Under the pieces are notes generated by a model. It saw only the letters and a list, made by a program, of their open reading frames with translations, was not told the origin of the DNA and did not search any database. Below, in pieces: positions 1-5,888 of a DNA stretch of 34,986 bases (the stretch's first letter is position 1; each line of letters starts with the position of its first letter). The translations under genes were made by a program, and so were the position numbers. The stretch comes from Arcobacter nitrofigilis (GTDB lineage: Bacteria > Campylobacterota > Campylobacteria > Campylobacterales > Arcobacteraceae), in the NCBI GenBank assembly GCA_020723015.1, contig DYJR01000004.1:5720-40705 (forward strand), in the 5' to 3' direction.

Positions 1-404
1 CGACAGTTGAAGAAGTTCCGACAGTTGAAGAAGTTCCGACAGTTGAAGAAGTTCCGACAGTTGAAGAAGTTCCTACTGTTGCAAATATTGCGGTAGATGA
101 TAAAAAATCTGAAGAAATAGTAGAAGTTTATTTTGAAGATAAAGTTAAAGATGAGCTTACAGCACAAGTAGCTACAAATATCAAATATAAAATCGATATA
201 AGTTTGTTGGATAAAAATAAACTAAAATGGTTTACGCAACGATATGGAATAAGTGATTATTATACTCAAGATGTAGGTAACGGTAAAGTACAGGTATTTA
301 TAGGTGATTTTAATGATAAAGAGAGTGCAATAAAAGCTTTAGAAACATTGCACCCTTACGTTAATTCGATATCTAAAATAATTGAATTTTCAACTAAAGA
401 CTAA
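1..404 (+). CDS. C-terminal part of a repeat-containing protein (partial)
   Basis: The reading frame is open from base 3 to the TAA at 402-404, so the ORF-track start at 204 (TTG) is only an internal codon and the gene begins outside the window. The visible part opens with a (TVEEVP)n repeat encoded by an 18-bp tandem repeat. A charged spacer follows, then a globular tail of about 75 residues. The tail contains VQVFIGDFNDKESAIKALETL, cut here to VFIGDFNDKESAIKAL, which resembles half of a SPOR-type domain (inference, weak). The acidic Pro/Val/Glu repeat is typical of a flexible linker in an envelope protein. The next gene starts 3 bases after the stop, so the two are almost certainly co-transcribed. 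The function is not recognised. Confidence 0.75.
   Translation, partial: TVEEVPTVEEVPTVEEVPTVEEVPTVANIAVDDKKSEEIVEVYFEDKVKDELTAQVATNIKYKIDISLLDKNKLKWFTQRYGISDYYTQDVGNGKVQVFIGDFNDKESAIKALETLHPYVNSISKIIEFSTKD
3..74 (+). repeat. 18-bp in-frame tandem repeat, four visible copies
   Basis: The unit acagttgaagaagttccg is repeated head to tail at 3-20, 21-38, 39-56 and 57-74. The last copy ends in cct instead of ccg. Each unit encodes TVEEVP. The array may continue upstream of the window. The near-perfect nucleotide identity suggests recent expansion and possible copy-number variation between strains. Confidence 0.95.
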
Positions 405-407
405 AAA

Positions 408-2537
408 ATGAATTTCACAATAGGTAAAAAGTTTCTTATATTGGCCGTAAGTTTATCATTAATAACTGTTTTATCTTTCGGTTATAACTATTTTACGTTT
501 AAAGAGAAAATAACACAAGAATTCGAGCATGGTAACGAAAAAGATATAGAATACGTATTAACAGGGTTACAAGAGGCACTAATGGCAAGTGATTATATGA
601 GTATTTTTAATATTTTAAGAGGTGTTGTAAACACTACAAATATAGAGCATATTAAAATAACGTATAACAGTTTGGTGTTTACTAAAAGTGCTTTGATTTA
701 TAATTCTACGTTTCCGAAGAACTTAGACTGGGATGTAACGGATATATCTACGGATGCTAGAAACGGGTTTATTTCTTTGGAAAGTAATAATATGTATAAA
801 CTATATACTACGGCACTGTTTAATCCAAAAAGAGCCGTGAATGTCAAATTTATATTATACAAAGACGGCACATTGATAAATGCTCAGTCTAGACTGAACT
901 TTTATTATGAATTATCAAGAAATGATATAGATATTACAAAGATAGATAATCCTGAATTTGTTAAGACAAAAGATATATATTTTGTAGATGAGCCTTTTGC
1001 AAAAATGAGTTATGTTATTGATGATACCGTAGTAGAAAAGCGTTTAAGTAATTTTTATAAATTGTTTTGGATCTATTTTATTGTATTGCTTATAGGTATT
1101 AACGCAGTTTTAGGAGCTATATACTATCTATTTGTTTTGAAATTATTACTAAGACCTATCAAATTATTTGAAAGCAATATGCAAAATGCCCTTGACAATA
1201 ATTTTGCAAATAAGATAGAGTATAAAAGCGGTAATACAGACTTTGATAATGTCATAGAATTACTAAACAAAGTTCTGAAAAAGTATACATCAGTGGTAAA
1301 TGAGTTAAATATAAATAAAGATATTTTGGAAAGAAAAGTCTTTACAGATGACTTGACAGGTTTACAAAATCAAAAAGTATTTGAATTAGATTTGAAGAAT
1401 ATGTTTATTACTAGAGCGGACGGATTTATAGGATATATTAAGATAGAAGCACTAGGTGTTTTTACTAAGCAGTTTGGTTCTGCCTTGGCAAATCATCTAA
1501 TAGAAGAATTCGCCCATACGGTACAAAATAAGTTTTATAAGTTTGAATTACAAGAAGCAACTCTTTATAGGTTCTTTGGTTCAGAGTTTGCTATGATTGT
1601 GAAAAATAAAGATGAAGAAGTTATTAATGCCTTTGCGTCAAATTTGATGGATGAATTACAAGACATGGCATTTAGATATGAGGTAAATGATACATTGTCA
1701 AGGTTTACTTTTATACCTTTTGATAAATACGGTACTATTGATTCTATTTTGCACTCTTTAAGTGATTCATACAACAAACTATCTTCAGCTGGAGATGTAT
1801 TTAGTATAGTTAGTTCTTCTGAGGTAGTTGATAAATTTGCCATACTAGAACAAAGTGTAAGGGCTATTATCGATCAACAATCATTTGAAATTAATTATGG
1901 CTTTGATACTCATTTGATTGAGACAGATGAAGTAATTATGCAAGAGGCTATGCCTTTATTGATTGACGAAAACGGTGATAAGTTCCCGATAGGCGTATTT
2001 ATATCTGCTGCAGAAAAGATAGGTTTAGCGTCAAAATTTGATAAATATATACTAGAAAATGTAATATTTTATATTAACTCCAATGAGATACAGCACAAAA
2101 TAGCAGTGAATTTGTCTATGTTTTCATTGGAGGATAGTGAGTTCGTAATATGGCTTCACTCTATTTTATTATATAATGAAGAAGCGGCAAAAAATCTGGT
2201 ATTTAGTATGACATCCTATAATGCTTCGACAAAAGTAGAAGTTTTCAAGCATTTCGTTGATGAAGTACATCGTTTCGGTGCAAAGGTTATTATGAAACGT
2301 TATACGATGAATGATTTTAATCTTGAAGATTTGGAGATATTTAAATTAGATTATTTAAGGGTACATAAAGATTATACAAACGGTATTGCCGAAGATAGGG
2401 ATAAAAAACATTTATTAAGAAGTGTATTGAATTTCTGCGAAGCAAATAATATTATAGCTATAGGTGACAGTATTAAGTCGCAAAATGACTTGAAAGTTTG
2501 TAAACTTATGGGCTTAGATGCAGTTAGTAAGTTTTAA
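408..2537 (+). CDS. LapD-like membrane protein with degenerate GGDEF and EAL domains
   Basis: This 709-residue protein has an N-terminal membrane segment (about 9-29), an extracytoplasmic region (about 30-215), a second membrane segment (about 216-246), a HAMP-like linker, a GGDEF-type domain (about 310-470) and an EAL-type domain (about 480-705). The GGDEF signature reads FGSEF (390-394). In the EAL domain, EAM stands at 513-515. The catalytic acidic residues are lost: the usual E-x-T-E stretch reads SMTS, the DDFG motif reads KRYTMNDF, and the K-I-D motif reads RVHK. Both domains therefore look catalytically dead, which fits a cyclic-di-GMP receptor such as LapD, where binding signals across the membrane. 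The gene starts 3 bases after the upstream stop and is followed 9 bases later by a lipoprotein gene. The LapD-like role is inferred from architecture; a LapG protease was not seen in the window. Confidence 0.82.
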   Translation: MNFTIGKKFLILAVSLSLITVLSFGYNYFTFKEKITQEFEHGNEKDIEYVLTGLQEALMASDYMSIFNILRGVVNTTNIEHIKITYNSLVFTKSALIYNSTFPKNLDWDVTDISTDARNGFISLESNNMYKLYTTALFNPKRAVNVKFILYKDGTLINAQSRLNFYYELSRNDIDITKIDNPEFVKTKDIYFVDEPFAKMSYVIDDTVVEKRLSNFYKLFWIYFIVLLIGINAVLGAIYYLFVLKLLLRPIKLFESNMQNALDNNFANKIEYKSGNTDFDNVIELLNKVLKKYTSVVNELNINKDILERKVFTDDLTGLQNQKVFELDLKNMFITRADGFIGYIKIEALGVFTKQFGSALANHLIEEFAHTVQNKFYKFELQEATLYRFFGSEFAMIVKNKDEEVINAFASNLMDELQDMAFRYEVNDTLSRFTFIPFDKYGTIDSILHSLSDSYNKLSSAGDVFSIVSSSEVVDKFAILEQSVRAIIDQQSFEINYGFDTHLIETDEVIMQEAMPLLIDENGDKFPIGVFISAAEKIGLASKFDKYILENVIFYINSNEIQHKIAVNLSMFSLEDSEFVIWLHSILLYNEEAAKNLVFSMTSYNASTKVEVFKHFVDEVHRFGAKVIMKRYTMNDFNLEDLEIFKLDYLRVHKDYTNGIAEDRDKKHLLRSVLNFCEANNIIAIGDSIKSQNDLKVCKLMGLDAVSKF

Positions 2538-2546
2538 AGGAAATAT

Positions 2547-3197
2547 ATGAAAACAGCTTTTTTTATAAATATATTATTGTTGGCTCTATTCATATCCGGA
2601 TGTTCTCAAAAAGAGATTGTGACACTTAAGTATTATGACAAATTCTCAAAAGATGATGTTTTATTAGCAGGTAAAAGAGCATTTATTACTGCACAAAATG
2701 ATAAATACATTATAGATTCATATAGAGATAGACTTGAAGTTACCAAGATAGATACCTTTTACCATTTGGTAGGTAGTAAAATAGTAGTGAAAGAGTATTT
2801 ACTTGAAGTTGAAGAGGATGATTTAGGAACCCTAGCAAAAATGACCGTTATCGGGTATTATGACCCTGATAAGAAAGGTAAGTATTATGTAGATAAAGAT
2901 GAACATAATTTTATATGGGAAAAAATGGATTTCTTTTTGGCTGAACGTGATAGTCTTTATCTTGATGCTTATAACGACAGCAAAAAGACCGCCTTGGGAG
3001 ATTCTTTTAAGACGAATATAGGTGGCTTTTATGAAGAAAAAATAATTAAGCCTTCCAAGTTTATGAAGGCAAACCAAGAGTTTGAAAAAGGTGTAATAGA
3101 ATGTGGTCAAAAAGATACGGTAGAATCAGATACTATTATAGAAAAAGATGATGAACTAAATATTGAAGAGATTGGACACGATGAAGAAAACTCTTAA
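2547..3197 (+). CDS. Putative lipoprotein of unknown function
   Basis: The 216-residue product starts with a short hydrophobic signal ending in the lipobox LFISGC at about residues 14-19, so it is predicted to be a lipoprotein anchored through that Cys. The start ATG is preceded by aaggaaa at a normal distance. The mature part is rich in charged residues (many Lys, Asp, Glu) and ends in a very acidic tail (EKDDELNIEEIGHDEE). It has no motif I recognise. It lies 9 bases after the degenerate GGDEF-EAL gene and overlaps the Sel1-repeat gene by 17 bases, so it probably belongs to the same envelope operon. Confidence 0.8.
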   Translation: MKTAFFINILLLALFISGCSQKEIVTLKYYDKFSKDDVLLAGKRAFITAQNDKYIIDSYRDRLEVTKIDTFYHLVGSKIVVKEYLLEVEEDDLGTLAKMTVIGYYDPDKKGKYYVDKDEHNFIWEKMDFFLAERDSLYLDAYNDSKKTALGDSFKTNIGGFYEEKIIKPSKFMKANQEFEKGVIECGQKDTVESDTIIEKDDELNIEEIGHDEENS

Positions 3198-4131
3198 AAC
3201 ATTAACGGCAAGTTTATTTGTTGTATCACTGTTATTTGCAGGTGATTTTGAGGAAGGTGTAAATAGTTACTTGTCAAAAGACTATACAAAAGCGTATGAG
3301 ATATTTTCAAAACTAGCAAATGAAAATAATTCAAATGCCCAGTATAATTTGGCTATTATGTATCAAAAAGGCTTAGGCGTTGAGAAAAATTTATATGAGA
3401 GTTTTGTGTGGCTTGAAAAAGCTTCAAATTTAGGTAACGTTCAAGCACAAAATAATCTTGCTTATTTTTATGAACACGGTCTTGTCGGAGAGAAAAATAA
3501 AATAAAAGCTATAGAATGGTATGAAAAAGCATCCAATAGCGGTTATTCAATAGCACAGTTTAATCTTGCTATGTTATATGAACAACATGAATTAGATAAA
3601 GAATATCAGAAAAAAGCATTTATGTTGTACGAAAAAGCCGCAACACAGGGTGTAGTGCCCGCACAAAACAATCTTGCAAGATTTTATTACTTTGGTTTTG
3701 GAACAAACAAAGATATGAAAAAAGCGGCTTATTGGTATGAAGAGGCTGCAAAACGTAATAATGACGTGGCGGCATTTAATTTAGCTTTGATGTATTATAG
3801 CGGTGAAGGTGTTGCAAAAGATAATGACAAAACCTTATATTGGCTTGAAAAAGCTGCAACTTTGGAGAATAAATTTGCCCAAACACAACTTGCTGATTTT
3901 TACCGTTCCGGAGAACTTGTAAAACAAGATTATGAAAAAGCTTTATTTTGGTATTTTGAAGCAGCTACGCAAGAGTATGCAAAAGCTCAGTATTATGTGG
4001 GGCTTTTTTACTATGAAGGTTACGGTGTGCCTCAAGATAAAGAAAAAGGGCTGTTTTGGATGACAAAATCAAAAGAAAACGGATATTCTTTTGCAGATGA
4101 ATTTATCAAACGGGTATCAAAAAAAGATTAG
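3181..4131 (+). CDS. Secreted Sel1-repeat (TPR-like) protein
   Basis: The ORF track begins at a TTG (3163), but the ATG at 3181 opens a clear signal peptide (MKKTLKTLTASLFVVSLLFA, then GDF), so 3181 is the better start. This makes a 316-residue protein whose first 17 bases overlap the lipoprotein gene. The mature part is about seven Sel1-type repeats of roughly 36 residues, with recurring A-x-x-N-L-A-x-x-Y, G-x-G-V and W-x-E-K-A-A positions. Sel1 proteins usually act as scaffolds for protein contacts. There are no cysteines, so it is not one of the disulfide-rich Hcp proteins of Helicobacter. Its 3' end overlaps the convergent permease gene by 4 bases. The binding partner is unknown; the lipoprotein or the degenerate GGDEF-EAL protein are candidates. 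Confidence 0.87.
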   Translation: MKKTLKTLTASLFVVSLLFAGDFEEGVNSYLSKDYTKAYEIFSKLANENNSNAQYNLAIMYQKGLGVEKNLYESFVWLEKASNLGNVQAQNNLAYFYEHGLVGEKNKIKAIEWYEKASNSGYSIAQFNLAMLYEQHELDKEYQKKAFMLYEKAATQGVVPAQNNLARFYYFGFGTNKDMKKAAYWYEEAAKRNNDVAAFNLALMYYSGEGVAKDNDKTLYWLEKAATLENKFAQTQLADFYRSGELVKQDYEKALFWYFEAATQEYAKAQYYVGLFYYEGYGVPQDKEKGLFWMTKSKENGYSFADEFIKRVSKKD

Positions 4132-5147: not shown

Positions 5148-5888
5148 TCAATTTCCGCTAATAACTTTGCCTTTATATGTCATAATACCGAAATCAAAGT
5201 TTATAACTTTTCTAAATCCTAAATCATGCATTACATGTTGGCAATATGCGCTTCTACTACCGCTATAACAATATACGATAGTAACTATTTCTTTTTGGTT
5301 TTCAAGTTGTCCTATGGTGTTATAAAAGCTTGTTGTCGGGATTAGATAGTCTGTTCCTTCAATTCTTCTTGATTTCCATTCCATCCACTCTCTAACATCA
5401 ACAAGATTAAAATCAACCATTTTTAAAGCTCTTGCTTCAAGTAGTGCTTCGAGCTCATCTGCATCAATAGACTCTTTTTCTAGTAATAGCTCACATTCAA
5501 GTGTACTTAATCCTCTTGAGTGTGTATGTACTACAATTTCAGCTTCGTTTGTACTCGCAAACTTACTAGCATACTCTTTTGTACAAAAAATACCACAATG
5601 ACATTTGCCTTCTTCAGGTATTTCATACTCTAAAGCAGGTTTACAAGGACAAATTCTATTATCTGCTGCTTTTTGTTCTTCCTTCGTTATTCCTATTACC
5701 ATAAAACATGGACAGTATCTTTTGTTGTATATTAGTTTATTTCTAGTAAGACCCATTTGTACTGATTCGTTGACTTCATCTTCAGGGTTATATACAAAGC
5801 CAAATTGTGAACATACTTTGTCTGTAAAGTTTTTTGTATTTTCTAGTTCTGTTTGGAATTCAGTTGAGTTCATATCTATTTTTATCAT
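5148..5888 (-). CDS. Ferredoxin-thioredoxin-reductase catalytic domain fused to a rhodanese domain
   Basis: The 246-residue protein carries the cysteine pattern of the catalytic (beta) chain of ferredoxin:thioredoxin reductase: CPC at 59-61, CPC at 80-82 and CHC at 96-98, followed by GIFC. Known FTR beta chains use CPC-x16-CPC-x8-CHC; here the spacings are 18 and 13, so the loops are longer. These cysteines normally hold a [4Fe-4S] cluster and a redox disulfide. The C-terminal part (about 155-246) is a rhodanese domain with the active-site loop CYSGSRS (Cys207) and the typical LVDVREWMEW start. The ATG is preceded by AAGG about 8 bases upstream. The two domains together suggest cluster-driven reduction of a sulfane-sulfur or disulfide substrate (inference). 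No FTR variable chain is nearby. Confidence 0.85.
   Translation of the reverse strand: MIKIDMNSTEFQTELENTKNFTDKVCSQFGFVYNPEDEVNESVQMGLTRNKLIYNKRYCPCFMVIGITKEEQKAADNRICPCKPALEYEIPEEGKCHCGIFCTKEYASKFASTNEAEIVVHTHSRGLSTLECELLLEKESIDADELEALLEARALKMVDFNLVDVREWMEWKSRRIEGTDYLIPTTSFYNTIGQLENQKEIVTIVYCYSGSRSAYCQHVMHDLGFRKVINFDFGIMTYKGKVISGN

Follow-up and report, generated by a model that had tools for sequence, protein, structure and literature searches.

The window analysed here is a stretch of 34,986 nt from Arcobacter nitrofigilis (GCA_020723015.1, contig DYJR01000004.1, positions 5,720-40,705, forward strand), the first base of which falls inside a type I secretion operon that starts upstream. 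At positions 408..2537 (+), this operon encodes a LapD-like receptor of 709 aa, whose GGDEF and EAL domains are predicted to be catalytically dead. The role known for LapD is to keep the protease LapG in check. Since the receptor of the window and the RTX adhesin of the same genome are both without what the LapG route needs, the grip on the adhesin is probably controlled in another way. Judging by sequence and gene content, we favour, with some reserve, the interpretation that the operon represents a LapG-independent, LapD-derived control of adhesin retention, built on a Sii-like (i.e., MotAB-assisted) type I secretion core.

A LapD-like receptor with degenerate catalytic sites

The LapD-like protein is composed of a transmembrane helix, a periplasmic domain (aa 31-206; 498..1025, +), a second transmembrane helix and the HAMP, GGDEF and EAL domains, the last two recognised by Pfam at 9e-7 and 6e-28, respectively. 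Its best sequence match was LapD 3pjw (E 5e-18), with 6pwj also among the nearest solved sequences, while the AlphaFold model (mean pLDDT 82) matched best 6pwk, 3pjw and 6pwj, which are LapDs of V. cholerae and P. fluorescens. The first-pass annotation, made from the letters of the window, had called this protein a LapD-type receptor, and both sequence and fold bear this out.

The same annotation regarded both domains as lacking their catalytic residues, which turned out to be right for most of them. The GGDEF motif has become FGSEF (aa 390-394; 1575..1589, +). In the EAL domain, the ExTE acids are replaced by Ser, the catalytic Asp-Asp pair by Lys630-Arg631 (2295..2300, +; Lys in 20/20 members, Arg in 17/20) and the catalytic Lys by Arg. 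However, the Glu of the EAL motif (MQEAM; Glu513, 1944..1946, +) is kept, being E in 19 of the 20 members and D in one, and so is the Asn of NxS. Given the established roles of the altered residues, neither synthesis nor hydrolysis of cyclic di-GMP (c-di-GMP) is expected, and both sites are, by these substitutions, dead.

An inactive pocket need not be a decaying one. Residues E513, K630, R631, R651, K654 and D687 belong to the most conserved 4-15% of the EAL domain across 20 divergent members, and such a pattern marks the altered pocket as maintained under conservation. Since the pocket is so strongly conserved, c-di-GMP is probably bound, and we consider this molecule the likely ligand. A competing explanation would be that the protein no longer binds c-di-GMP and serves the secretion machine as a structural or assembly part, inherited with it since the complex depends on this part. 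The strict co-inheritance with envelope parts described below speaks for it, as do the basic residues standing in place of acidic ones in the pocket and the missing equivalent of R450; this arginine beside the EAL motif is of central importance to the LapD of P. fluorescens (PMC3032553), and its position is variable in our group of receptors. The LapD of V. cholerae, solved with c-di-GMP (6pwk), likewise carries no Arg at this position in the sequence alignment. Overall, we hold a purely structural role to be unlikely, although it survives better than the other alternatives considered below.

The Campylobacterota considered here carry up to three types of LapD per genome. Type A (624-634 aa) is canonical, has the LapD_MoxY_N domain and adjoins LapG. 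Type B (about 740 aa) has a longer periplasmic domain and its own adjacent LapG, and keeps both PxWF and Gly-Trp. The protein of the window represents type C, and LapD_MoxY_N (PF16448), matched in type A, was not matched in it by Pfam. In our tree, types B and C were sister clades (100/100), each of a single origin (100/97 and 98/95). P. fluorescens LapD grips LapG via W125 in a GWxQ loop (PMC3032553). The corresponding Gly-Trp was found in 18/18 LapG-linked receptors of types A and B vs. 0/21 of type C; in the window protein, the aligned loop lies at aa 193-195 (984-992, +). An alignment artefact was considered and rejected, as there is no Gly-Trp anywhere in the type C periplasmic domains. 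Because Gly-Trp is present in types A and B as well as in P. fluorescens LapD, its loss in type C is the simplest reading. Such a topology and residue pattern place type C LapD as a descendant of LapG-regulating LapD receptors that has lost the docking tryptophan.

A side observation concerns type B: its LapD-LapG pair (L088 8452-9102 and 6234-8441, i.e., G030 C1:666-669 kb) has equivalents in about 14 genomes, with no adhesin seen alongside.

Probable absence of the LapG route

No LapG gene was found in the operon at any of 33 loci, in agreement with the first-pass annotation. Looking upstream of base 1 for LapG or an adhesin, as it had suggested, revealed no LapG; an adhesin does exist, but elsewhere in the genome (see below). 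The LapG cleavage motif, [TPA]AAG, was likewise missing from the N-termini of all 16 adhesins inspected and from the whole length of the adhesin belonging to the window's genome. LapA-type adhesins standing beside canonical type A LapD and LapG in two sister genomes served as a positive control and read TEEETAAG. The NCBIfam LapA retention module (NF033682) gave weak, mostly unspecific matches in the class and was not used as evidence.

Such evidence bears directly on the possibility that we are dealing with a usual Lap system whose LapG is remote, where the LapD-like protein would sequester a protease encoded elsewhere that cuts the adhesin. LapG homologues are indeed present in most of the genomes bearing the system, that of the window included (C50:1197-1523), and some crosstalk is possible there. 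Yet, besides the missing docking residue and cleavage motif, two genomes carry the whole system with no LapG (PF06035) found: G015 (99% complete) and G358 (100%, one contig). Moreover, the LapGs that we saw either adjoin their own LapD of type A or B, or are orphans near aroE or fabH/plsX. Taken together, this leaves a distant LapG improbable. As for the orphans, PF06035 genes without a neighbouring LapD are located at C50:1197-1523 in the window's genome (G000), L083 8264-8905 and L087 8072-8713, amid housekeeping genes (aroE; fabH/plsX/ndk).

The RTX adhesin

The genome of the window encodes a complete adhesin of 9,339 aa (C3:4371-32390), unlinked to the operon, with 104 GGxGxDxxx motifs and no cysteine. 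Thus, the earlier statement that the operon comes without the usual RTX adhesin holds for the region upstream at the locus itself, but the genome does encode one. A family search with the adhesin N-terminus gave no known family; matches to SDR proteins were below cut-off and were dismissed.

The connection between adhesin and operon comes from two sorts of evidence. First, in our sample of 397 Campylobacteria genomes, the 29 matched by the MotA-like profile were exactly the 29 in which the N-terminus of the adhesin was found, with none discordant. Because of shared ancestry, these 29 co-occurrences amount to fewer than 29 independent events; however, presence and absence of the two alternate together within several genera. 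Second, there are linked cases. An RTX protein with the same N-terminus lies near the operon in G010, and the adhesin is at most two genes away from the operon in G010, G169, G370 and G350. In G169 and G370, a single gene run comprises ABC, HlyD, the 317-aa protein, MotA, MotB, TolC-SPOR, LapD, lipoprotein, Sel1 and adhesin, while in G042 and G286 the adhesin is directly behind MotB. The adhesin is not giant everywhere, being 1,437-1,539 aa long in G169, G370 and G350.

We also observed that an FkbM-type methyltransferase (and a TPR protein) adjoins the giant adhesin gene at L108 1860-4201 (own genome, C3) and L068 4617-5435; possibly, this enzyme modifies the adhesin or a glycan on it.

The secretion core

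The operon of the sister genome UBA6211 (L008) runs ABC transporter, HlyD adaptor, 317-aa membrane protein, MotA-like protein, MotB-like protein and TolC-SPOR. The window's own contig (C95) carries the same genes except for ABC and HlyD, both lying beyond the contig end. Downstream of TolC-SPOR, the genes for the LapD-like protein, the lipoprotein and the Sel1 protein are tightly packed, and this order recurs in UBA6211 and in more than 11 other genomes.

The LapB-like ABC transporter (TIGR03375) and the HlyD adaptor (TIGR01843) both scored above cut-off. The MotA/ExbB-like protein did so for PF01618 (MotA_ExbB, E 5.5e-5), and its profile found a single weak MotA/TolQ/ExbB entry in the PDB (8vvn, E 0.003). 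In the small MotB-like protein, the membrane helix contains an invariant Asp (FVDIFSS), while an OmpA-type C-terminus was seen weakly (E 0.011, in 2 of 12 members); its profile gave no match in the PDB. A search with the 317-aa protein gave no known family. Having a membrane helix at each end (L007 82-1035, upstream of the window; L008 4104-5060), this protein precedes the MotA-like one in LapD-bearing loci and stands directly before the adhesin in some LapD-less genomes (L128, L129).

The window itself begins with the 3' end of the TolC-SPOR gene (1..404, +), in which a TVEEVP linker repeat (1-81) is followed by the last SPOR domain. The TVEEVP-repeat protein that had been proposed as a separate gene is, therefore, dismissed: positions 3-404 are the C-terminal SPOR end of a TolC-family outer membrane protein of roughly 1000 aa, starting outside the window at C95:2901 (the sister protein has 1023 aa). 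Pfam recognised OEP and SPOR in the sister protein, and SPOR on the window piece at E=0.012. The 18-base repeat is a linker absent from the sister genome. Just upstream of base 1, a masked run of N (L007, about 5598-5700) breaks the TolC-SPOR frame, while the sister gene is fully open.

The LapD-lipoprotein-Sel1 module

Type C LapD was present in 21 of the 29 genomes with the MotA-like gene, always at the secretion operon and never without that gene. The profile of the neighbouring lipoprotein matched precisely these 21 genomes and 0/21 others searched, including 12 with type B LapD only. TolC-SPOR, LapD and lipoprotein were together in 25/25 loci and Sel1 in 24/25, across three families of Campylobacterota, so that the expected conservation of the four genes was indeed found. 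In contrast, eight loci have the secretion core with LapD, lipoprotein and Sel1 all absent, and TolC short where seen: 450-575 aa vs. 761-1361 aa for complete SPOR-bearing genes. Overall, LapD, lipoprotein, Sel1 and the SPOR-extended TolC are inherited as a set, while core and adhesin can exist without LapD. The LapD-less variants comprise L112 (G042), L127-L129, L136-L138 and L130, five of which have a MotA-like protein of 700-790 aa, about twice the usual length.

The lipoprotein (2547..3197, +) consists of a lipobox (FISGC), a small domain and a disordered acidic tail, and its search gave no known family. The small domain has a weak fold likeness to the N-terminal domain of BamC (E 3e-4, TM about 0.5), too weak to be used for function. 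The Sel1-repeat protein (3181..4131, +), with seven Sel1 stretches, is predicted to be periplasmic or secreted; Raptor_N/caspase Pfam matches in it fell below cut-off and were dismissed. The first-pass annotation correctly saw both genes packed behind LapD, but the best start of Sel1 is 3181, i.e., 17 bases inside the lipoprotein gene, rather than 3163.

One might argue that the LapD module governs some other envelope process or operon expression, e.g., with a neighbouring HDOD protein, and is linked to the adhesin indirectly, given the HDOD-domain genes beside operon or adhesin in eight loci and the generic scaffolding nature of Sel1 proteins; yet LapD invariably lies between TolC-SPOR and lipoprotein and the module never occurs without the secretion core at its side, which makes this quite improbable. 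The HDOD genes come from three families (L068 18479, L121 14199, L122 13890, L123 1645, L124 15477, L125 6865, L126 14828, L073 10606).

Away from the operon, a ferredoxin-thioredoxin reductase catalytic chain fused to a rhodanese domain is encoded at 5148-5888 (-), and an RNA family search of the window found none.

A scenario for protease-free control of the adhesin

Based on the above, we would like to propose the following scenario. The type I secretion apparatus (ABC, HlyD, TolC-SPOR) would export and hold the RTX adhesin, with the MotA/MotB-like pair assisting as in Sii. This core would have gained an added module, in which the LapD-like receptor is combined with the lipoprotein, the Sel1 protein and a TolC extended by SPOR. 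The dead EAL domain would read cytoplasmic c-di-GMP, and the signal would pass via HAMP to the periplasmic domain, which in turn would act on operon partners (Sel1 scaffold, lipoprotein, TolC-SPOR or MotAB-like pair) instead of LapG. The SPOR and MotB-like parts might tie the channel to peptidoglycan, with the Sel1 protein as scaffold and the LapD-like receptor as switch. In such a manner, the adhesin could be held or let go without a LapG cut.

The steps of this scenario are not equally firm. That the receptor acts through operon partners and not LapG seems to us highly likely, the operon content naming candidates for this role. That the output is control of adhesin retention or export is also likely, if slightly less so. 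It is tempting to go further and suppose that the receptor directly controls a proton-driven, MotAB-like clutch at the type I channel, gripping and releasing the adhesin reversibly with no proteolysis; this would be an inside-out signalling that spends no adhesin, but we offer it only as a tentative extension. The earlier idea of a variant inside-out system over an envelope assembly is well supported insofar as a true LapD relative without LapG is conserved with lipoprotein and Sel1; it needs amending in that the set is part of type I secretion, along with a MotAB-like pair and an RTX adhesin, and does not govern some unspecified assembly instead of an adhesin.

Several observations weigh against our scenario. 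The adhesin is usually unlinked, and its status as substrate of the secretion system relies on co-occurrence and the linked cases. The MotAB likeness comes from weak HMM matches and an invariant membrane Asp. As eight genomes have core and adhesin with no LapD module, export in general can do without LapD. To these should be added the variable R450 position and the LapG homologues elsewhere in most system-bearing genomes. A conserved LapD lineage without LapG, docking residue or substrate cleavage site, yet tied to an adhesin exporter, indicates that such a receptor can act on something else.

Comparison with known systems

In the open literature, with subscription papers and preprints outside the scope of our search, we found nothing on LapD with Arcobacter or Campylobacterota, nothing on giant adhesins with type I secretion in Arcobacter, and neither a paper joining LapD with such a secretion operon nor an earlier description of the system.

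A close relative in the same bacteria is the type B LapD-LapG pair, as in G030, whose receptor belongs to the sister clade of the window protein and has the same EAL pocket chemistry. Unlike the window system, this pair adjoins lapG, keeps PxWF and Gly-Trp, and has no lipoprotein, Sel1 or secretion operon alongside.

The Lap system of Pseudomonas fluorescens (LapA, LapB/C/E, LapD, LapG) offers a LapD of the same architecture with dead GGDEF-EAL, as well as LapB/LapC/TolC-type secretion and a large RTX adhesin. What differs here is the absence of LapG from the locus, of the docking tryptophan and of the cleavage motif, together with an unrelated adhesin N-terminus; in addition, the operon brings in a MotAB-like pair, lipoprotein, Sel1 and SPOR parts. 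Although the window system would operate much as an adhesin exporter under LapD control, we set it apart from Lap because LapG and the cleavage site are missing, and its receptor apart from LapD proper because of the missing docking loop. In Shewanella, a bacterial two-hybrid study probed BpfD and its periplasmic domain for interaction with protease and adhesin (PMC4523816). The Dvh system of Desulfovibrio vulgaris (DvhD/DvhG) kept the protease and swapped the receptor for a dCache-PAS-HD-GYP protein (PMC13090378). Both Dvh and our system serve large type I-secreted adhesins and depart from Lap in the regulatory step; Dvh is the mirror case, our system having retained the receptor and lost the protease.

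Finally, we would like to comment on Salmonella, whose SPI-4 encodes the Sii system (SiiA-F). There, SiiE is retained under the control of SiiAB, which forms a proton channel of MotAB likeness, and no proteolysis was seen (PMC6272769). In Sii as in our system, an adhesin (giant in Sii) goes together with type I secretion and an inner-membrane pair resembling MotAB, with no protease, the likeness of the pair to SiiA/SiiB being of the general MotA/ExbB kind and implying no homology of adhesin N-termini. The reviewed Sii genes include no LapD, lipoprotein or Sel1 (PMC6272769). Thus, a single operon appears to unite both known ways of holding giant adhesins: that of Lap, with c-di-GMP and proteolysis, and that of Sii, with a MotAB-like channel.

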